Of a stretch of DNA of 64,000 bases, positions 54,395-62,573 are shown one piece after another. The DNA is from Cohnella sp. AR92. Its GTDB lineage: Bacteria; Bacillota; Bacilli; Paenibacillales; Paenibacillaceae. The notes beneath the pieces were generated by a model. The model was given only the letters and a program-made list of their open reading frames with translations. It was not told the origin of the DNA and ran no database searches. Made by a program: the position numbers and the translations under genes. Location of the stretch: positions 1 through 64,000 of the forward strand of contig NZ_RZJR01000010.1 in assembly GCF_003990975.1 (NCBI RefSeq), written 5' to 3'. The stretch's first letter is position 1. Each line of letters starts with the position of its first letter.

Positions 54395-54759
54395 GGGGCC
54401 GTTTATGGATTCGACGGGGATAGTTCGAGCATGGGTAGCGGGTAGTAGGGCTGCGTCTGCTTCATCAACGCGGAAAGCCAATTAACTGGCAACCAAAAAC
54501 AACAACTCGCTTTCGCAGCTTAATAACCTGTGACGCGGCTTCTACCTTCCATCGCCCATGTGGCGGGATAGGGGCTCAACTTTAGTGGGATACGCTGTCT
54601 AGTCTCCGCCTGGGGCTAGCTGAAGAAGATAATCAGGCTGACCCAACGCAGAGCCGGTTACGGGGCGCTGCTCGGGTGACATCAAAACTGTGACTACACC
54701 CGTAGAAGCCTGTGTGGCGTTGTCTTCGGACAGGGGTTCAACTCCCCTCGGCTCCACCA
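54395..54759 (+). ncRNA. ssrA: tmRNA (10Sa RNA)
   Basis: A 365-nt transfer-messenger RNA. The 5' acceptor GGGGCCG pairs with 3' CGGCTCC, followed by A and encoded CCA; TTCAACTC is the T-loop. The 5' segment TTTATGGATTCGACGGGGAT is the usual start. The tag frame most likely begins at GCG (54470) and reads 17 codons to TAA at 54521, ending in LAFAA, close to the classic LALAA/VALAA proteolysis signal. ClpP in this window would degrade tagged proteins. Its 3' end is the apparent integration point of the following island. Confidence 0.95.
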
Positions 54760-54831
54760 ACATCGAAACCATCCGCATGAGGATGGTTTTTTTGCGTGGA
54801 GATGAGAGTTGGGAGTTGCCCCGAATCCGGA
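54744..54831 (+). repeat. ssrA-end module A: left boundary of the island
   Basis: This holds the last 16 nt of ssrA (CCCCTCGGCTCCACCA), the ssrA terminator, and the flank GTGGAGATGAGAG... to CCGAATCCGGA. The terminator and flank recur at 62511-62573, with five differences over the 36-nt flank. Confidence 0.8.
54767..54793 (+). terminator. Terminator of ssrA
   Basis: AACCATCC-GCATGA-GGATGGTT with a following T run. The loop word GCATGAG recurs in the repeated modules downstream. Confidence 0.9.
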
Positions 54832-54876
54832 GGAGGACAGGGGGACAACCGCGCGCAGGGAGCGAAATGATGGGGC

Positions 54877-54927
54877 CCCCACAAAGTAATCGGAATAAGC
54901 TTAGAAGGTTAGCTTCACTTTGTGGGG
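54877..54927. repeat. Inverted repeat inside the gene-free 54832-55016 segment
   Basis: CCCCACAAAGT (54877-54887) and ACTTTGTGGGG (54917-54927) are exact inverted copies, 29 nt apart. No open frame of note is present here. It could be a structured RNA or the ends of a small element remnant. Confidence 0.65.
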
Positions 54928-55016
54928 TGTAGCAACGAGCACGGCATCTGATTCTACCTCTGCGCTCTGCTTCGTCGAATGGGCATCGTCAGCAAACTTA
55001 ATCGGGAATCATATAC

Positions 55017-55077
55017 CCCCTCGGCTCCACCATGTAAATCCACTACCGCATGAGGTAATGGATTTTTGCTTTTTTTC
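55017..55077 (+). repeat. ssrA-end module B
   Basis: The 16-nt tmRNA end CCCCTCGGCTCCACCA is duplicated exactly (55017-55032), then a terminator hairpin AATCCACTACC...GGTAATGGATT with loop GCATGA and a T run. The 52 nt from 55020 match 61672-61723 with three differences. Confidence 0.85.
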
Positions 55078-55138
55078 ATTTATAGCTAGAACCTTATGAA
55101 AGCTTTTTCAATTTAGTATAACTAAGAGAGATTTTATA

Positions 55139-55147
55139 TGGTATGAT
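55139..55147 (+). promoter_or_regulatory. Extended -10 of the acyltransferase gene
   Basis: TGGTATGAT at 55139-55147 in an A+T-rich stretch, 30 nt before the start codon. Confidence 0.45.
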
Positions 55148-55176
55148 ATGTAAAAATATAAAGGGGATTACATAAA

Positions 55177-56295
55177 TTGAATCGCCGTCTATTTTTTCTA
55201 GATAACATACGAACGTTCCTAACCATATTGCTCATAATATTCCATACGGCTATTACTTACGGAGCGTCTGGGTCTTGGTACCTTGATGACGTAGATAAAA
55301 GTGAAATCAATGCGACTATTGTTCTGTTAACGATCTTTACTGGAGTATGCCAATCTTTTTTTATGGGACTCTTTTTCTTTATTTCTTCGTATTTCTTCTC
55401 GCCATCGTATGAGAAAAAAGGAGCTTTCCGGTTTCTTAGGGGGCGTCTTGTACGTCTAGGGATTCCTCTGCTCATTTATTATTTTGTGATAGGCCCAATG
55501 ACGGTATGGTTTGCAAAATTTCGAGATCAACAGACATTGGTTCAGTTTTATAAGGATAACGTTTGGAGTTTTCGTTGGACGTTTTTTGGTCCTACTTGGT
55601 TTTTGGAAGCCTCTATCTACTTCACCTTGCTTTATATTCTGTTTCGACTCCTTTCAAAAGATAGGCTTCCGAAGAAATCGATTGTATTTCCCAACGGTAA
55701 GACGTTGGTTGTCGTGGCGATTGCTCTTGGATTAATTGCCTTTGCAGTACGTCTGGTTTATCTAACGGGCACGGGGCCTTTGGAATTGCAGTTGGGTTAC
55801 TTTCCATCCTATATCTTGCTATTCATTGCAGGCATCATCGCACAAAGACAAGGATGGTTAGAACAAATTCCGGGGAAATTACAACGGATATGGCAATGGG
55901 TCGCGATGATTGGCGTGGTTCCCGTTCTGCCACTCGGACTTATCTTAACCGGGGCATTAGATGGAGACGTTCATTTTGGCGGCGGGTTTAACAGTCAAGC
56001 ATTGTTCTATGCAATGTGGGAACCATTCATCTGTTTAGGAATAATTATTTCCCTGCTTACTTATTTCCAAAGGAGATTCAATACGAGGAATGTATTCTCA
56101 AAATGGTTATCTGATAATGCTTATACGGTCTATTTGATTCATCCACCGGTTGTTGTCGGATGGACTATCGCTTTTCATGGAGTCGGCTTGCCGGCGATCG
56201 TGAAATGGGTTATCGTCTCGGCTCTTTCTGTCGCCGTTTGTTTTATTGTCGCCAGTGCCATTCGAATGCTGCCCTACGCCAAACGGGTGCTTTAA
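55177..56295 (+). CDS. Acyltransferase-3 family membrane protein
   Basis: A 372-residue protein with about ten membrane segments. NRRLFFLDNIRTFLTILLIIFHTAI at the N-terminus carries the family's conserved His in IIFHT; FRFLRGRLVRLGIPLLIYY and NAYTVYLIHPPVVVG are also typical. The family O-acylates sugars or other cell-surface acceptors. TTG 55177 has AAGGGG ten bases upstream. The gene is visibly richer in A+T than the chromosome around it, fitting recent transfer with the ssrA island. The acceptor is unknown. Confidence 0.85.
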   Translation: MNRRLFFLDNIRTFLTILLIIFHTAITYGASGSWYLDDVDKSEINATIVLLTIFTGVCQSFFMGLFFFISSYFFSPSYEKKGAFRFLRGRLVRLGIPLLIYYFVIGPMTVWFAKFRDQQTLVQFYKDNVWSFRWTFFGPTWFLEASIYFTLLYILFRLLSKDRLPKKSIVFPNGKTLVVVAIALGLIAFAVRLVYLTGTGPLELQLGYFPSYILLFIAGIIAQRQGWLEQIPGKLQRIWQWVAMIGVVPVLPLGLILTGALDGDVHFGGGFNSQALFYAMWEPFICLGIIISLLTYFQRRFNTRNVFSKWLSDNAYTVYLIHPPVVVGWTIAFHGVGLPAIVKWVIVSALSVAVCFIVASAIRMLPYAKRVL

Positions 56296-56590
56296 TAGGT
56301 GTGAACGAAAAACATACTCCGGCGAATTGTGGTTAGCGGTGATCGAAGGGGAGTCCATGAAAATGTGGTGAAGCAGCTCAAGCGTACTCCTTCCTTCTGT
56401 CCAAGGCCGCCAGGATGCGCTGGATTCAGGCAGTCTTTAAGGATTTGATCTCCCGCAATTCGACTCCACGATAAGAACTCTGACCGAGTGAGGTTGGAGT
56501 TTTTTGTTGTCGGCCTTGTTTGAGTTCATACCTTCATCATTGCCAATGCATAAGATGGTATAGAGGCTAATGCGGAGAGGAGGATTCATT
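56296..56590 (+). other. Gene-free stretch with a possible coding remnant
   Basis: No complete gene is seen. A short open segment at about 56367-56450 reads AAQAYSFLLSKAARMRWIQA in one frame and may be the remnant of a lost gene; I cannot name it. The right part holds module F at 56458-56506. Confidence 0.4.
56458..56506 (+). repeat. ssrA-end-like module F (degenerate)
   Basis: ATTCGACTCCACGAT resembles a T-arm and acceptor end, followed by the hairpin AACTCTGACC-GAGTGA-GGTTGGAGTT (two G-T pairs) and a T run. The arrangement is the same as modules A-D, but the sequence is more diverged. Confidence 0.5.
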
Positions 56591-57340
56591 ATGGTTCGTG
56601 CACATAATGGAGGAAGTTGCTACATGATCAGAAACGACACTGCCGTATTGGATGCGAAGCGGGGGGATGTAAACGGGGATGGAACGCCAGATCAAGTTTA
56701 TTTGACAGGCAGTCCTACTGTGGGCAGCGCTTTTGTCCAGAATATACAACTGACCGTCGTTGACGGTCGCAGCGGTGCAAAATATACTAGCCAACTGAAG
56801 GACAATGCAGGTTATAACGCTCGCCTCTTCTTAGGTGATTTTACAGGAGACCGCGTGGACGATATCTTGATAAGTATCGATTCCGGCGGCAGTGGCGGCT
56901 TTACCTACAATTACATTTATTCCTTTCTACAGAATGTGTTTCACGAGCTCTATAACAATGAGTGGTTCTACGAAGCATACAGTGACGCCTCTGTTATCTA
57001 TGAGGACAACTACAAAGTTCGAATTGTAAATCGTTCCTTGCATAAACAATACCTTTTGGACATCAGCACGCGCGACCCCTCTTATTTGTCTGAATTGTAT
57101 GATTCGAACGGTAAGTTGAGAAAACCAGTTGAAGGCAGCGTGCTGGGCGTAAGCGGAGCTTATCCGATCGACCTGCAAGGGGATAGAGTATACGAAATAT
57201 GGCCCCTCCAACGTGTGATCGGTTTGTATAACGCGGATACGTTGGCGTATTTGCAAACCCCGTTAAGCTGGAGTTCAAACACTTCTAGATTTATCCCTAT
57301 GTTTCAGTGGGCTTCCGTTATCGGTAATGATACAAATTGA
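56591..57340 (+). CDS. FG-GAP/VCBS-like protein without signal peptide
   Basis: A 249-residue protein. Two calcium-loop-like repeats are seen: AKRGDVNGDGTPDQVYLTG near residue 21 and LFLGDFTGDRVDDILISID near 77, as in FG-GAP beta-propeller repeats. The C-terminal 140 residues (with GAYPIDLQGDRVYEIWPLQR) I cannot assign. No signal peptide or membrane segment is visible, which is odd for this usually extracellular repeat type. ATG 56591 has GGAGAGGAGG eight bases upstream; ATG 56570 is the alternative. Confidence 0.7.
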   Translation: MVRAHNGGSCYMIRNDTAVLDAKRGDVNGDGTPDQVYLTGSPTVGSAFVQNIQLTVVDGRSGAKYTSQLKDNAGYNARLFLGDFTGDRVDDILISIDSGGSGGFTYNYIYSFLQNVFHELYNNEWFYEAYSDASVIYEDNYKVRIVNRSLHKQYLLDISTRDPSYLSELYDSNGKLRKPVEGSVLGVSGAYPIDLQGDRVYEIWPLQRVIGLYNADTLAYLQTPLSWSSNTSRFIPMFQWASVIGNDTN

Positions 57341-57392
57341 AAAACAGGATATATTCGAATAGGAATTCAAGGGCCGGTATTCGGGGAGTGGT

Positions 57393-57440
57393 TCGGCTCC
57401 GCCAACATGAAACCCGATCGCATGAGGTCGGGTTTTTTGC
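57393..57440 (+). repeat. ssrA-end-like module C with terminator
   Basis: TTCGGCTCCGCCAACAT is close to the tmRNA end plus its next bases (CTCGGCTCCACCAACAT). The hairpin AACCCGAT-CGCATGAG-GTCGGGTT and a T run follow. It probably terminates the FG-GAP gene. Confidence 0.75.
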
Positions 57441-57597
57441 TATTCTTTGCATTGTTCTATTATTGCATGCGAATGATTGGCAAACTATGGTATGTTATAA
57501 CTACCTTAACTACCCTATTGAAATGGCTGCGATGGATCGGTGTCCTCGGTGGACTCTTATGGATTCTGTTAATGGTCAAAAGGAGTGCATGTGATTG

Positions 57598-58458
57598 ATG
57601 AACTCAATCGGAAAAGTAAACGCAGTGACGGAGCTTGATCCGCCGATTATGAATCCTGATTTTCCGCCCATGCTCCATCTTCTTCAAATCCCGTCAGGCG
57701 ACAGCCAGCTTGTTGGAAGAATGTATTCGCCTCAAGGGAGCGGATCGCATCCATTAGTCATCCTGCTGCACGGCTTTCCAGGTTCTCAATTCAATCACGA
57801 CATGGCAGCCTATCTTCAGGAGCTGGGGTATCATGCATTAGTATTTCATTACAGGGGAGCTTGGGGCAGCACGGGCGAGTTCTCGATCGTTCATGCCTTG
57901 GAGGATGTAAGAACGGTTCTTGCTTATTTACGCCAAACGGATATCATTGAAAAATATCATATCGATACTGGCCGCATTGCGCTTGTTGGTCATAGCTTTG
58001 GAGGCTTCCTCGGATTGATGACCGCAGCGAACGATCCGTCAATCGCGGCTTGCGCTTCGATCTCCGGCGCGAATTATGGAGCCATCGGCACAAAGCTGAG
58101 CGATCCTGGGATGATCAACCGGTATGAAGAGGCGTACGAATATGCTGCCCGTTTTCTTACTGGTTACACGAGTCAGAAATTGGCAAGCGAAGTGCTGGAG
58201 CACTTCGAGCAGTGGAATCTCGCCGATTGCGCTCCCAAGCTTGCGGCCTGTCCGGTATTGCTGATCGGAGCCGGTCAAGATGCCGTTCTCCCAGCCGCCG
58301 AACACCATGTGCCCCTTGTCCAAGCTTTCGAGCAACTGGACCGCGCCGAATTCCGACATCTTTTATTCGAAGAAGCCGGCCATGGGTATGAAGGCAAACG
58401 CAAATCGCTTTGTCATGCTATTGGTGAATGGCTGGCACAGGTGATTGAAACGGAATGA
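57598..58458 (+). CDS. Alpha/beta hydrolase
   Basis: A 286-residue serine hydrolase. The oxyanion segment LLHGFPGSQFNHD is near residue 60, the nucleophile elbow VGHSFGGFLGL near 131, an acid in LLIGAGQDAVLP near 226, and the histidine in FEEAGHGYEGKR near 263. No signal peptide, so it is cytoplasmic. AAAGGAG precedes either TTG 57595 or ATG 57598. The family covers esterases, peptidases and dienelactone hydrolases; the substrate is unknown. It is the third protein gene of the island. Confidence 0.85.
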   Translation: MNSIGKVNAVTELDPPIMNPDFPPMLHLLQIPSGDSQLVGRMYSPQGSGSHPLVILLHGFPGSQFNHDMAAYLQELGYHALVFHYRGAWGSTGEFSIVHALEDVRTVLAYLRQTDIIEKYHIDTGRIALVGHSFGGFLGLMTAANDPSIAACASISGANYGAIGTKLSDPGMINRYEEAYEYAARFLTGYTSQKLASEVLEHFEQWNLADCAPKLAACPVLLIGAGQDAVLPAAEHHVPLVQAFEQLDRAEFRHLLFEEAGHGYEGKRKSLCHAIGEWLAQVIETE

Positions 58459-58510
58459 GAAACAATAATGGATGCAAGCGGATCCATCCTAATCGGTAAC
58501 GATTACAAAC

Positions 58511-58547
58511 GAGCCAGCCTCCTTTTTACAGGAAGCTGGCTCTTCTT
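58511..58547 (+). terminator. Terminator of the hydrolase gene
   Basis: GAGCCAGCCTCC pairs with GGAAGCTGGCTC around a T-rich loop, followed by TTCTTT. Confidence 0.8.
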
Positions 58548-58599
58548 TGCCTAGCGCTAATATCGGTACTTCTGCCGTTGCCAAGAGTAGCTTGAATAA

Positions 58600-58794
58600 T
58601 CAACTGGGGATTCTGCATGTATTGCGGCCTAATAATTTGTTAATTCCGCATCTTTGAGTCAATCCCGTTAGCAGAAACGGAATAGCAACTAAACCTAACC
58701 ATTTCCAATGCCCGGGGAGAACAAAGAATAAAACGAGAAGAGCGATTCCAAGGACAATACGAATGGCTCGATCTGCTCCGCCTACATTTTTCAT
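58600..58794 (-). CDS. DUF2892 small membrane protein (YgaP-like)
   Basis: A 64-residue protein. The start MKNVGGADRAIRIVLGIALLVLF and the two hydrophobic helices match DUF2892. The C-terminal TQRCGINKLLGRNTC has two cysteines, as usual for the group, which is often fused to or near rhodanese domains; none is seen here. The ATG at 58794 has GAGGAGG upstream. The function is not established. Confidence 0.85.
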   Translation of the reverse strand: MKNVGGADRAIRIVLGIALLVLFFVLPGHWKWLGLVAIPFLLTGLTQRCGINKLLGRNTCRIPS

Positions 58795-58962
58795 TTACAA
58801 ATCCTCCTCTCTATTTGATTCGGCAGGATGATCTTATCAAGAGCTAAGAAGTTAAACCGTAACAAGATCACATAACCGTAAAATAAGCAAATTTATGATG
58901 TGTCTTGACTTTGTGAAGGCCAAATGGAAGGTGAATAGGGCTTTTGGAGGGCAAATAACAAA

Positions 58963-58995
58963 GAAGGAGCCCAGGTACTGGACCTGGGCTCCTTC
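58963..58995. terminator. Strong hairpin, possible bidirectional terminator
   Basis: A perfect 14-bp stem with a 5-nt loop. The flanking T tracts are weak on both sides, so terminator function is only likely. Confidence 0.55.
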
Positions 58996-59173
58996 TCTTG
59001 TAATCTCTAACATTTATCAAGGCGTTATAAGGGTAATAGGTTCGGATATACCCTCATTCGCGCCGCCGGTAACCGTTAGCCGGAACTGATGGTGTGTGAA
59101 AATGTGGGGAGAGAAGGGGGTTAATCATGACTAGTTCCAATAGCATGAATCCTGCAAAGTATTTAAATAAGTC

Positions 59174-59200
59174 GGACTGCGAAGAATAGATTCGCAGTCC
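59174..59200 (-). terminator. Terminator of the sigma/anti-sigma unit
   Basis: GGACTGCGAA...TTCGCAGTCC is a perfect 10-bp stem just beyond the anti-sigma stop at 59209. The minus-strand tail GACTTATTT is moderately T-rich. Confidence 0.65.
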
Positions 59201-59208
59201 GTTATCCT

Positions 59209-60315
59209 TTATCCGTTGGCGGAAGGCAGCTCGATCTTCGTTTCCAGTCCTTTTAAGTATTGATCGTCCTCGATATCCTCTGCAAAGTCGTCTTTAATGA
59301 CGAAGGGCTTCACAATGAAGTACTTGCTCGTTCCCGGTTGGGAAGCGTAGCGGCGGTCGAAAATAAGACGGTTCCCTTCAATAACGCCATCCCCGTTCAG
59401 GGCAGTCAGGCGACGTCCTTGATCGTCATAAACGGCAACCCCGATCTTGATCAAGCGCCGCTCTTCTTTGCTTGTCAACGTCGTCGCATCTGCCAGGGCG
59501 ATGGAAGTCGTCAGGCGTGTCGTAATCGGCGTTACCCAAACGTCGGAGACAGAGAAGGTAAGGTCGCCGCTAGTCGTGACGGTATTCGGACTTAGTTCGG
59601 CCGTTTTATCGGTTGTTTTCTTAAACGGGATGTCCACGGCAAACTCATGGTCAATCCCGTCGAGAGCGATGGTAACCGTGGAATCGAAGGAATCGGACGC
59701 AGCGCTCGGATCGACGATTGCTTCAAAGACAAGCGTATTCGGATGGCCTTCGCCGGCACTTCCGTAGTAGATCCCGCCGTTCTGCTGCTTGCCGTCTACC
59801 GTGAAAGTCATACTCGAAACGGCCTGACTCAGTCTGATCTTCTTTTTCCCATTGTTGTAGGTTCCGTTATCCAGGTTGGGTGCCGTCACATTCAGCAGAA
59901 AAGCAGCTCTTTGACCGTCATAAAGGGTTTCGGTCACTTCAAGATTTACGTCTTCATAAGAAACGGTATGATTAACGGTTGAAGTAAGACCAAGTTCACC
60001 GGCTAAACGAAGTCCCATGTCGCCTTGGATCGAGCTGAAGATACTGCCGATAACCGGGATACTCTTCAGCGAACTCGCCATGGCCGGAGATACGAAAGCG
60101 GAAGTGAACAGCCCGGCCGCCAGGATGCCAGCCGCTGATGTCGTTAAGGCCAGCCGGCGAGACCGTGAAGATTTCCTTCTGGTGGTACGCTGGACCTGGG
60201 CCTGCTGGGACAGGAACGCATAGGTTTCGTCCAGGCGTGTCCGGACGAGGGGGGACATCTCCGAATTGCTGCTATCTATCTTTTTAAATTCCTTCGCAAT
60301 GTTAAATGCTTCCAT
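59209..60315 (-). CDS. DUF4179-type membrane anti-sigma factor
   Basis: A 368-residue protein. Residues 1-55 form a cytoplasmic, basic N-terminal part, with a single membrane segment at about 55-80 (LALTTSAAGILAAGLFTSAFVS). The extracellular part has DUF4179-like VNHTVSYEDVNLEVTETLYDG near 110 and a C-terminal beta-rich domain. It overlaps the sigma gene by 14 nt, so it is probably translationally coupled. It is expected to hold the sigma factor until an envelope signal arrives; this is inferred from the pairing. Confidence 0.88.
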   Translation of the reverse strand: MEAFNIAKEFKKIDSSNSEMSPLVRTRLDETYAFLSQQAQVQRTTRRKSSRSRRLALTTSAAGILAAGLFTSAFVSPAMASSLKSIPVIGSIFSSIQGDMGLRLAGELGLTSTVNHTVSYEDVNLEVTETLYDGQRAAFLLNVTAPNLDNGTYNNGKKKIRLSQAVSSMTFTVDGKQQNGGIYYGSAGEGHPNTLVFEAIVDPSAASDSFDSTVTIALDGIDHEFAVDIPFKKTTDKTAELSPNTVTTSGDLTFSVSDVWVTPITTRLTTSIALADATTLTSKEERRLIKIGVAVYDDQGRRLTALNGDGVIEGNRLIFDRRYASQPGTSKYFIVKPFVIKDDFAEDIEDDQYLKGLETKIELPSANG

Positions 60316-60835
60316 AGTTCATCTTCCCTTCATGCCTATTGGGTAAAGATCTTTGTAGAGCGTCGCGCGCTCGGGAAAGACGCATCTTCACGGCGCTTTC
60401 CGAAATATCCAGGATCCGGGCCACCTGGCGAAGCGGAAGGTCTTCAAAATAATGAAGGATAACCGCGAGGCGCTGCGGTTCATCCAGCCGATCTACGGCC
60501 TCTCTCAGATCAACCTTCTCGTAATCGCCGGAGTAGGAGGACACCGGCGGAACCTCCGCATAGGCGATCGAACCGGAGTGCTGCGCGATAAGGTTCCGGC
60601 ATTCGTTGATCAGAATCCGGAATATCCAGGTTTTGAAGTACTTTGGTTCCCGTAAAGCAGAGACGGCTTTATAAGCCTTGAGAATGGTTTCCTGCAGGGC
60701 ATCCGCCACGTCCTCGTCTTTGGACAAGAGGGATTTGGCCATAAAATGCAGGGAGTTCTCTAGTTGCCTGATTAAAGTAATAAATGCCTCGGAATCGCCT
60801 GCCGTAGCTTTTGCTGCAAGTTTCGTGAACTCCAC
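60302..60835 (-). CDS. ECF sigma-70 family RNA polymerase sigma factor
   Basis: A 177-residue sigma factor. Region 2 includes LLSKDEDVADALQETILKAYKA and KTWIFRILINECRNLI. Region 4 has DEPQRLAVILHYFEDLPLRQVARILDIS then ESAVKMRLSRARDAL. The GTG at 60835 has AAAGGAG upstream. The next gene encodes its likely membrane anti-sigma factor. Upstream bases 60836-60960 should hold its promoter, but I see no sure ECF -35/-10 pair. Confidence 0.92.
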   Translation of the reverse strand: MEFTKLAAKATAGDSEAFITLIRQLENSLHFMAKSLLSKDEDVADALQETILKAYKAVSALREPKYFKTWIFRILINECRNLIAQHSGSIAYAEVPPVSSYSGDYEKVDLREAVDRLDEPQRLAVILHYFEDLPLRQVARILDISESAVKMRLSRARDALQRSLPNRHEGKMNYGSI

Positions 60836-61023
60836 TTGGCGCTCTCCTTTCTGTGTTTATTGTCTTTATACTAGTTAGACAGCGCGAGCCGACAAATGGT
60901 CACTAAGCCTAAAGAGATCTTGCTAATTAATTCATTCATACGCCTATGCTTGCTTCAGCGGATGAACTCCGTGCTTCATGTAAAAAATAGGCACCCATTC
61001 CCCTCGATATTAAAGACGAGATG

Positions 61024-61032
61024 TGTTATAAT
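61024..61032 (+). promoter_or_regulatory. Extended -10 of cspA
   Basis: TGTTATAAT at 61024-61032. The transcript would start near 61039 and carry a leader of about 130 nt, as is common for cold-shock mRNAs. Confidence 0.6.
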
Positions 61033-61055
61033 CAATCTCAGAGAATGCATGACCT

Positions 61056-61115
61056 AATTCACATAGCGTAGAGGGTTATTCTTGAAGGACAATAACCTTG
61101 TACGATGTGTGAATT
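61056..61115 (+). promoter_or_regulatory. Structured 5' leader of cspA
   Basis: An outer stem pairs AATTCACATA (61056-61065) with TATGTGTGAATT-like bases ending at 61115 (about ten pairs). An inner stem pairs GGTTATT with AATAACC (61074-61097) around CTTGAAGGAC. Such leaders act as cold-responsive switches in E. coli cspA; function here is inference. Confidence 0.6.
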
Positions 61116-61169
61116 TTATTTTTAAGTAAATAAGATGCTCATGTTAATACTGAGAAGGTGGTAATCCTA

Positions 61170-61370
61170 ATGGAATCGGGAACAGTCAAGTGGTTTAACG
61201 CAGAGAAGGGCTTCGGCTTTATCGAAGTGGAAGGCGGCAACGATGTATTCGTTCACTTCAGCGCGATCGTCGGCGACGGCTACAAGTCTCTGGATGAAGG
61301 CCAACGCGTAGAATTCAATATCGTTCAAGGCAACCGCGGACCGCAAGCCGAGAACGTCGTCAAAGTTTAA
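61170..61370 (+). CDS. cspA: CspA-family cold-shock protein
   Basis: A 66-residue OB-fold nucleic-acid chaperone. RNP1 is seen as KGFGFIEV and RNP2 as DVFVHFSAI; the start [17 protein letters not shown] is canonical. The ATG at 61170 has AAGGTGG upstream; a GTG at 61158 lies inside that site. It is followed after a hairpin by a YdjO-like gene, so the two may answer cold together. Confidence 0.95.
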
Positions 61371-61376
61371 GATCAA

Positions 61377-61406
61377 ATCGCCCCAGGCATATCGTTTGGG
61401 GCGTTT
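61377..61406 (+). terminator. Hairpin between cspA and ydjO-like gene
   Basis: CGCCCCA...TGGGGCG stem flanked by AAAT and GTTT. The T tract is short, so read-through into the next gene is possible. Confidence 0.6.
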
Positions 61407-61448
61407 GTAACTCTTTACATCCATTCCAAACCTGAAAGAGGGATGTAC

Positions 61449-61658
61449 ATGCATTATTCCAAGAAAAGACAGCTTGAGGAAGTACCGCAAGAGTTGACCC
61501 CCGTCTGGCTGTGTCCGACCGAGAACTGCAAAGGATGGATGCGGGAGAACTTCACGTTCTCAAGCACGCCGACATGCCCCCAATGCCAGGCCAAGATGGT
61601 TAAAGGCGAGAAAATGCTGGCGGCTGTCCCCAATACGAGTCCGATTCATACCAAATAG
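61449..61658 (+). CDS. YdjO-like cold-inducible zinc-ribbon protein
   Basis: A 69-residue protein. Two cysteine pairs, WLCPTENCKGWMRENF and PTCPQCQAKM, form a likely zinc ribbon, matching YdjO of Bacillus. ATG 61449 is preferred because AGAGGG ends near 61442; ATG 61443 touches it. It lies 78 nt after cspA. The function is unknown beyond cold induction reported for Bacillus. Confidence 0.82.
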   Translation: MHYSKKRQLEEVPQELTPVWLCPTENCKGWMRENFTFSSTPTCPQCQAKMVKGEKMLAAVPNTSPIHTK

Positions 61659-61671
61659 AGAATAGGCGAAG

Positions 61672-61725
61672 CTCGGATCCACTATGTAAATCCACTACCG
61701 CATGAGGTAGTGGATTTTTGCTTTC
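61672..61725 (+). repeat. ssrA-end-like module D with terminator
   Basis: 52 nt match module B with three differences: a changed acceptor CTCGGATCCACTA, then the hairpin AATCCACTACC-GCATGA-GGTAGTGGATT and a T run. It is 14 nt after the YdjO-like stop. Confidence 0.85.
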
Positions 61726-61766
61726 CTCGATGTTGGTTTGCGTTCAAACCCCGAAAGCCGCCGCCC

Positions 61767-62381
61767 TTAACCCCCGGCGACCGAGAATCCGTGCATGATC
61801 TCCCACCATGCTTGATCGTAGCCGCGCCAGTCATGTCCTGTCGGAATCGATATCGAAGCGATCCCCGGAAAGCCCCAGTCCTCGTGCCGGATCCGGTATT
61901 CGTCCTTGAAGTTGACGACGAGCAGCCGGAAGCCGCGGGGAGCGATCAAGGACAGCGCCCTTTGCAGCTGAAGCGATTGCGACTCGGAAGCCTCGGTCCG
62001 GACGAAGCAGAGCGGTCCGCCTGCACCGGCGGAGAGGACGGCTTGCGCTCGACGGCGCAGCTTGCTTGCGACTTCGGGGTATGCGACAGTCCAAGGCTGG
62101 AACGCCGGGAAGTCGTGATACGATTCGAGGTTGTAGCCGGTATCCCGGATAACGTGGTTCGTCTGGTCGATGCCGACCACCTGCAGCCGATTCACATTCA
62201 GCAAGCCGTCGAACCGATTGCTTACAAGGCGGGAGATATCGGAGGCATTGCGGGAGATGAACCAGTCCAACGGACCGGCGAAACGCCTGAGGCCAAGCCT
62301 GCGGAGCTGATGGGCGGTCTGACAGGTGGCACCCAAGCTGACGAATGCCTTATAGGCGCCCGCACAGTCGTACCAGCGCAT
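61767..62381 (-). CDS. DUF1796 putative papain-like cysteine peptidase
   Basis: A 204-residue protein. FVSLGATCQTAHQLRRLGLRRF at residues 10-31, followed by GPLDWFIS, is the DUF1796 signature, with the likely catalytic cysteine in GATC. NFKDEYRIRHEDWG near 170 may hold the other active-site residues. The ATG at 62381 has AGGAGGG upstream; the frame is open back to 62516 without a site. Family members occur in Bacillus and near glycosylation genes. It is unpaired here and opposite in strand to cspA and ydjO. Confidence 0.8.
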   Translation of the reverse strand: MRWYDCAGAYKAFVSLGATCQTAHQLRRLGLRRFAGPLDWFISRNASDISRLVSNRFDGLLNVNRLQVVGIDQTNHVIRDTGYNLESYHDFPAFQPWTVAYPEVASKLRRRAQAVLSAGAGGPLCFVRTEASESQSLQLQRALSLIAPRGFRLLVVNFKDEYRIRHEDWGFPGIASISIPTGHDWRGYDQAWWEIMHGFSVAGG

Positions 62382-62494
62382 TCGCACCCTCCTAGTGGGC
62401 CGCCGGTGTGGCGGCGCTAATGTGGTATCAGTATATCGGTGCCCAGGTAGGTGCGACACGGATAACAGCCCGTGGGTTGAAAGGGAGGGATAGG

Positions 62495-62573
62495 GGCTCC
62501 ATTGCACCAAAACCATCCTCGAGAGGATGGTTTTGGTGTGGAGATAAGAATGGGGAGTTGATCCGAATCCGGA
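62495..62573. repeat. ssrA-flank module E: right boundary of the island
   Basis: GGCTCCATTGCACC is a weak tmRNA-end match. The next bases AACCATCC...GGATGGTT repeat the ssrA terminator stem, and 62538-62573 match 54796-54831, the flank directly after ssrA, at 31 of 36 positions. This looks like the original ssrA downstream flank. Confidence 0.75.
62505..62538 (-). terminator. Perfect 16-bp inverted repeat, likely terminator of the SLH gene
   Basis: CACCAAAACCATCCTC and its exact complement are separated by two bases (GA). It lies 60 nt past the minus-strand SLH gene stop and within module E. Confidence 0.65.

Follow-up and report, generated by a model that had tools for sequence, protein, structure and literature searches.

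RtT-like repeats have so far been a curiosity of Escherichia coli and the Pasteurellaceae. This work concerns a repeat unit of similar layout that stands behind ssrA, the gene for transfer-messenger RNA (tmRNA), in Cohnella sp. AR92, together with the DNA that follows it, within a stretch of 64,000 nucleotides (contig NZ_RZJR01000010.1, positions 1 to 64,000) referred to here as the window. An original prediction had placed a single genomic island in ssrA, bounded by one duplicated flank of 36 nt. The reading that we favour, with moderate confidence, is that two features are superposed, an RtT-like unit and an ssrA accretion zone of several cassettes.

Several described systems resemble one or the other of these features. 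RtT has been reported to be released from tRNA operon transcripts and has been linked to the stringent response (PMC4986893); in Salmonella it is a variable repeat of 175 bp (PMC2658671), and RtT-like sequences have been linked to bacterial interspersed mosaic elements (PMC2965389). In Dehalococcoides, islands enter ssrA at the T-loop and leave 20-bp repeats of its 3' end, some of them being described as devoid of integration genes (PMC3146451). These islands differ from the window in that the same account attributes to them a conserved integration module with Ccr-like recombinases, of which none was seen in the window, where moreover the copies have decayed and ssrA is separated from the cargo by an RNA-like unit. 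Islands at tRNA and tmRNA genes in general, as treated in Islander (PMC4383910), are marked by displaced fragments of the target gene, as is the window, which departs from them by its several serial scars and by having no integrase in 54.8-62.6 kb. The cis-mobilizable elements (CIMEs) or accretion elements, a term taken from PMC3146451, likewise have no recombination or transfer genes in the cargo that their target-end repeats enclose, the repeats of the window being putative attachment (att) sites. Finally, mycobacteriophage Ms6 (PMC1762012) shares the tRNA-Ala target class and the T-loop position, and differs in being a phage with its own integrase, whereas the unit described below has no gene.

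The RtT system is the closest in layout. At the E. coli tyrT/tyrV locus, the RtT model (RF00391) gives four matches after the tRNA-Tyr genes; the E. coli units follow a tRNA gene, carry a 19-nt copy of the tRNA 3' end that starts at the T-loop A, and have an inverted copy of the tRNA end (GGGGAAGGAT) with a GGTTCGA-like stretch ahead of the body. The hosts differ, being tRNA-Tyr in E. coli and tmRNA or tRNA-Ala(GGC) in the Paenibacillales. RF00391 matched none of 60 relatives, its E. coli control being positive, and R1, our covariance model of the unit core, found nothing in the E. coli locus. Since the layouts are alike and neither model matches the other's locus, the unit is RtT-like in layout and not an RtT member by the model test. 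In four loci, the Rfam matches to E 10 did not include RtT, and the unit family as such has no Rfam match; weak matches to RF04321 (permuted tmRNA) across the ssrA end and the unit, at 31.5 bits against a cut-off of 47, do not amount to membership.

The repeat unit and its distribution

The DNA downstream of ssrA was compared among relatives, which were found via SmpB and via ssrA itself. Many Cohnella carry, in this order, ssrA, a terminator, a conserved stretch, a second copy of the ssrA 3' end and a further terminator, an arrangement also present in the window (Table 1). The 36-nt duplication of the original prediction is real, with 31 of 36 bases equal by a count made by eye between 54796-54831 and 62538-62573, 7.7 kb apart; a repeat tool lengthens the match to 54789-54831 and 62531-62573 (43 nt, 84%), and a CCATCC..GGATGG stem is common to the terminators preceding both copies. 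Because the same 36 nt form the 5' part of the repeat that recurs after ssrA in many relatives, the match is more than chance, and a chance repeat could be ruled out; as part of a repeat unit, the flank is also discarded as the att site of a single island. Compared with the relatives, the duplication is the 5' end of an intact unit and the 5' end of a truncated second one (62536-62573). At the other end of the intact unit stands a 16-nt exact copy of the ssrA 3' end, which the original prediction did not contain and which is one of two exact copies in the 6.02-Mb genome.

By these comparisons the unit is a structured element of about 200 nt of the Paenibacillales, with no open reading frame (ORF) assigned to it, that follows ssrA or tRNA-Ala(GGC). 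Some relatives have three units in tandem (loci L012 and L140); adjoining units of one locus may carry different terminators (L154), and in L192 and L193, among other loci, tandem copies are 92-98% alike. The inner palindrome of the window unit was considered as a nested insertion and rejected, by eye only, the same hairpin standing at the same position in L158 and L150, and it is therefore taken as the mark of a unit subtype. A search of the literature (open-licence PMC papers) turned up no description of this repeat; the family is apparently previously undescribed.

R1 found 117 places in 34 of the 37 genomes of the genus. In a sample of the order, searched with stricter filters than the genus, it matched 101 of 246 genomes and 31 of 46 genera, and in a sample of the phylum only two of 299 genomes, namely the present one and a weak member of its own family. 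The 117 places cluster behind ssrA: 34 lie within 0.5 kb downstream, 17 at 0.5-10 kb and 11 at 10-60 kb, while two lie at about 130 kb, four far off on the ssrA contig and 49 on contigs without ssrA. The 62 units located up to 60 kb downstream of ssrA all share its strand, and of the 35 genomes in which ssrA was placed, 23 carry a unit at most 150 nt from it. Among the 57 best-match loci a tmRNA was found in 30 and a tRNA in 10, which was Ala(GGC) every time. The same tRNA was the only one met in 20 further regions picked by hand (13 regions), one of these 13 genes lying 4 kb upstream of its unit, which adjoins a tRNA-Ala fragment, and two more units likewise follow tRNA-Ala(GGC). No blastn match of the units was found on phages or plasmids, and none of six viral contigs returned by a looser pattern (the stricter one returned none) matches R1.

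Unit ends and host gene ends

For 70 units with an upstream gene, the unit end was scored against the last 15 nt of that gene, up to and including the discriminator. At least 13 of 15 positions agreed in 51 units, 39 of them exactly, which is the RtT arrangement of a 3'-end copy behind a tRNA-type gene; exact copies were seen for nine of 11 different gene ends, including those of genes encoding no CCA. In the 51 units, identity ranges from 0.92 to 1.00 between positions -15 and 0 (the discriminator), is 0.92 at -15 and drops to 0.02 at -16, a sharp edge that we take to correspond to about nucleotide 58, in the T-loop. The window unit scores 13/15 against the ssrA end, its exact part being 16 nt.

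The 5' end of the unit contains an inverted and poorer copy of the host end, with an own-end score of 8.42 against 6.77 for other ends and 5.91 for shuffled spacers. The own host end beats the mean of the other ends in 45 of 48 units and ranks first, alone or tied, in 29 of 48 (in 11 of 13 when units are collapsed by their end), and the observed mean was reached by none of 2000 label shuffles.

Structure and covariation

Four helices were drawn by hand on 28 aligned units, and pairs were counted from the same sequences. Of all cells, 87.8% are paired, compared with 20-35% when partners are slid by 1 to 3 columns, and both sides have changed in 12 of 22 pairs, compared with 4.4 in shuffles, a control that leaves the relatedness of the units in place, and 2-5 with slid partners. 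The long helix occurs as TGATTC/GAATCA, CAATTC/GAATTG and CGATATC/GATATCG, a range of sequences that we find convincing.

What this structure serves admits more than one explanation. It may be that covariation arises from a cruciform or single-stranded DNA, and not from RNA, in an element recognised as a folded single strand, of the REPIN or attC type; the ends of the unit are indeed mutual inverted copies around a structured spacer. We regard this as improbable, given that every one of the 62 units downstream of ssrA has the ssrA orientation and that the long-range helix encloses a loop of more than 50 nt. The layout of the unit is an inverted copy of the host 3' end, a conserved structured body and a direct copy of the host 3' end (about nucleotides 58-76), with a terminator behind it; in the mechanism that we propose, the unit would be transcribed by read-through from the host gene, and its near-complementary ends would form a helix resembling an acceptor and T-arm, open to tRNA-type processing.

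Variable presence of units

The tRNA-Ala gene occupies one syntenic place across the genus, with units behind it in some Cohnella and none in others. Two genomes, G032 and G028, are alike at this gene up to and past its end, save for 203 nt (alignment columns) that are extra in G032 and that make up a single unit flanked by two copies of the gene end, the shared part of the copies being one base apart. The difference amounts to a precise event, whether gain or loss. A comparison of G011 with G036, G012 and G034 was rejected as a clean empty site, a remnant being left in G011. Repeated palindromes (TTTGTACGAT..ATCGTACAA) were also observed just past tRNA-Ala in G028 and G032 (L284 and L281), in copy numbers that differ between genomes. 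At ssrA, the DNA that follows the C. fermenti unit is 90% identical over 175 nt to that directly after ssrA in Cohnella sp. GbtcB17, so that the left end of an island follows the unit's copy in the former and ssrA itself in the latter; by sequence, this reflects either the addition of a unit or the landing of an island of the same kind on the copy within the unit.

Such variation may be accounted for if units come and go by recombination within the duplicated 3'-end block, in which case exchange would most likely be carried out by a trans-acting, site-specific recombinase at the T-loop, or come from slippage between repeats. A further possibility, put forward tentatively, is that the unit is a non-autonomous, RNA-structured and gene-free mobile mini-element of about 200 bp, which inserts in the T-loop of alanine-acceptor RNA genes, rebuilds their end and leaves the spare copy as a landing pad. 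Alternatively, the unit might be a stable small RNA gene, kept vertically, and both multiplied and lost through unequal crossing-over, whose ends are matched by gene conversion and pairing and not by insertion. Its strong structure, its wide and vertical-looking spread and the likeness of tandem copies in L192 and L193 would agree with such a gene, as would the release of RtT from tRNA operon transcripts and its 175-bp variation in Salmonella; however, presence varies at the syntenic tRNA-Ala among Cohnella, neighbouring units have differing terminators (L154), and the edge of the copy is sharp at the T-loop, and we consider this explanation doubtful.

The accretion zone behind the unit

A profile of relatives' ssrA ends and terminators was searched in 104 kb, with a reversed control whose best E was 0.39. 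It found the end of ssrA itself and four copies (55017, 56460, 57393 and 61672) at E 3e-13 to 3e-7, with a weak fifth at 62506 (E 0.06); the copies at 56460, 57393 and 61672 had been overlooked in the original prediction, whose view of ssrA as an insertion target they support. Copies of the target end at boundaries are what tRNA and tmRNA islands have, and cargo without recombination genes between att-like repeats is what CIMEs have. Outside the zone, a bare terminator of the ssrA-unit type was observed at 72124-72162 in contig numbering (L119), E 1e-4.

Table 1. Features of the window at and behind ssrA
Feature	Position	Strand	Remarks
ssrA (tmRNA), host gene of the unit	54395..54759	+	tag GNQKQQLAFAA
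Reference scar copy: 3' end of ssrA and terminator	54744..54795	+	
Complete RtT-like repeat unit, long-hairpin subtype	54796..55032	+	covariance-model match 54828-55033, 111.5 bits
5' flank of unit (the stretch reported as duplicated)	54796..54831	+	holds degenerate inverted ssrA-end copy (GTGGAG)
Long hairpin CCCCACAAAGT..ACTTTGTGGGG within unit	54877..54927	+	same place in L158, L150
Direct ssrA 3'-end copy	55017..55032	+	exact over CCCCTCGGCTCCACCA
Terminator following unit	55033..55073	+	
Acyltransferase, putative cargo	55177..56295	+	PF01757
Decayed ssrA-end/terminator copy	56460..56511	+	E 3e-7
FG-GAP-like gene, putative cargo	56570..57340	+	
Decayed ssrA-end/terminator copy	57393..57442	+	E 2e-9
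Alpha/beta hydrolase	57595..58458	+	Pfam
YgaP-like transmembrane protein	58600..58794	-	PF11127
Anti-sigma-like protein (DUF4179, DUF5643)	59209..60315	-	Pfam
ECF sigma factor	60302..60835	-	Pfam
Cold-shock protein (Csp) and YdjO pair, putative cargo	61158..61658	+	
Decayed ssrA-end/terminator copy	61672..61724	+	E 4e-8; 94% identical to 55020-55072
DUF1796 protein	61767..62516	-	Pfam
Decayed ssrA-like end, terminator, truncated 5' end of second unit	62492..62573	+	scar E 0.06; flank 31/36 to 54796-54831

The interval was correctly predicted to be A+T-richer as a whole (G+C 0.486 for 54832-62537, compared with 0.540 to 0.613 in 7.7-kb windows of 1-54394), the DUF1796 segment being the part for which this fails. 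Pfam backs the acyltransferase, hydrolase, ECF sigma, DUF4179/DUF5643 and DUF1796 of the predicted gene list, gives no match for its FG-GAP-like ORF, and finds both Csp and YdjO, which the list lacked. A very long ORF with SLH domains (1430 aa), running from 62599 to contig position 66891, starts directly after the truncated unit.

Two blocks of this gene set recur at ssrA elsewhere. Across 824 bp, the FG-GAP-like segment shares 87% identity with a copy located at ssrA in Cohnella sp. WQ 127256; there, a displaced piece of ssrA directly follows the gene and the ssrA stretch itself is 84% identical. Homologues at E 1e-10 occur in 27 of 100 genomes, of which only that of WQ 127256 is close (84%), the next over most of the length being at 51%. 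C. lubricantis has a Csp-YdjO pair 5 kb behind its ssrA that shares 87% identity with the pair of the window across 662 bp, and a similar pair in Paenibacillus prosopidis (L029 12276-13206) is enclosed by two displaced ssrA 3' ends, in a cassette-like arrangement of less than 1 kb. As a set, the genes differ from those of the relatives, in support of the original prediction: at E 1e-10, close matches in 32 loci, covering at most about 20 kb near ssrA, were limited to the FG-GAP-like gene and to an ORF that lies antisense to the Csp/YdjO region, the remaining cargo genes having none near ssrA among the loci searched. Displaced ssrA fragments are frequent in relatives. Tandem full-length tmRNA genes were also seen (L049 10664-11511, L107 1012-1865, L110 1017-1865 and L089 1024-1861), with tag peptides that differ in L049, L110 and L089 and are the same in L107; the additional genes are possibly displaced complete ssrA genes.

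Given the serial scars, the blocks that recur at ssrA, the displaced ends in relatives and the published ssrA islands, the stretch 55033-62491 reads as several old insertions at an accretion site, some of its genes perhaps being resident. The DNA behind the unit, to about 62.5 kb, would then be a zone of cassettes left by ssrA-specific insertions, for which the exact ssrA-end copy of the unit would be a plausible landing site.

As regards recombinases, none of the ten scanned proteins matches a recombinase family in Pfam, in agreement with the original prediction that no integrase is visible. The genome has four matches to PF07508, none on contig C26, and 11 to PF00589, of which the seven listed are all on other contigs; in relatives, an ORF motif scan within about 9.5 kb after ssrA gave two unconvincing matches only for a tyrosine integrase. 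Serine recombinases do occur at host genes, 0.7 kb after ssrA in G017, 0.65 kb after tRNA-Ala in G004 and, with stops, in G020, and in G017 the original ssrA end and its unit array have been displaced by 42 kb. In G020 (L034 10697-18703), ssrA is followed 7.3 kb further on by a 323-nt ssrA fragment, with the decayed serine recombinase between.

One classical ssrA island at 54760-62537, with its integrase lost and the 36-nt repeat as att duplication, would suit the low G+C of the interval and has a precedent in Dehalococcoides, where 20-bp 3'-end repeats and islands without integration genes are reported (PMC3146451). However, the 36-nt repeat sits beyond the ssrA end and belongs to the separate family of units, and there are several ssrA-end copies. 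Moreover, among the loci compared, which cover about 9-20 kb, none showed the 7.7-kb site empty in a relative; the contig of the nearest relative, C. fermenti, ends 882 bp past ssrA, and C. thailandensis has other DNA there. A single island with one duplicated flank is therefore not supported; we regard it as very improbable, and layered cassettes appear to fit better.

Several observations weigh against a superposition of an RtT-like unit and an accretion zone. The DUF1796 segment (61725-62491) has a chromosome-like G+C of 0.614, and the csp-ydjO block of C. lubricantis has no adjoining scar. Neither a tRNA nor a tmRNA is near the unit in 17 of the 57 best-match loci and in seven of the 20 regions picked by hand, some of these being displaced arrays; 19 of the 70 units are without a good host-end copy, many of which stand first behind ssrA in one Cohnella group and have another end type. 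As to structure, the free RNAalifold consensus is weak (-6.7 kcal/mol, 16 pairs) and misses the best covarying helix, which was drawn by hand from the same sequences that scored the pairing, and hairpin helix 2 is paired in just 69% of cells. The G032/G028 pair is silent on gain versus loss, and both genomes carry another unit further down; none of the tests run linked the units to a recombinase.

Implications

In about two fifths of the Paenibacillales genomes sampled, the RtT layout goes together with tmRNA and tRNA-Ala(GGC), which makes it a recurring kind of element. If the unit is a mobile mini-element, islands would integrate at the spare copy without touching ssrA, and the RtT repeats of E. 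coli would count as another case of this kind, either independent or very distantly related. The family offers many natural replicates for asking how such repeats originate, whether to count them as RNA genes or as mobile elements and what makes alanine-acceptor genes their hosts, and it bears on how an insertion hot spot is tolerated at an essential gene such as ssrA.

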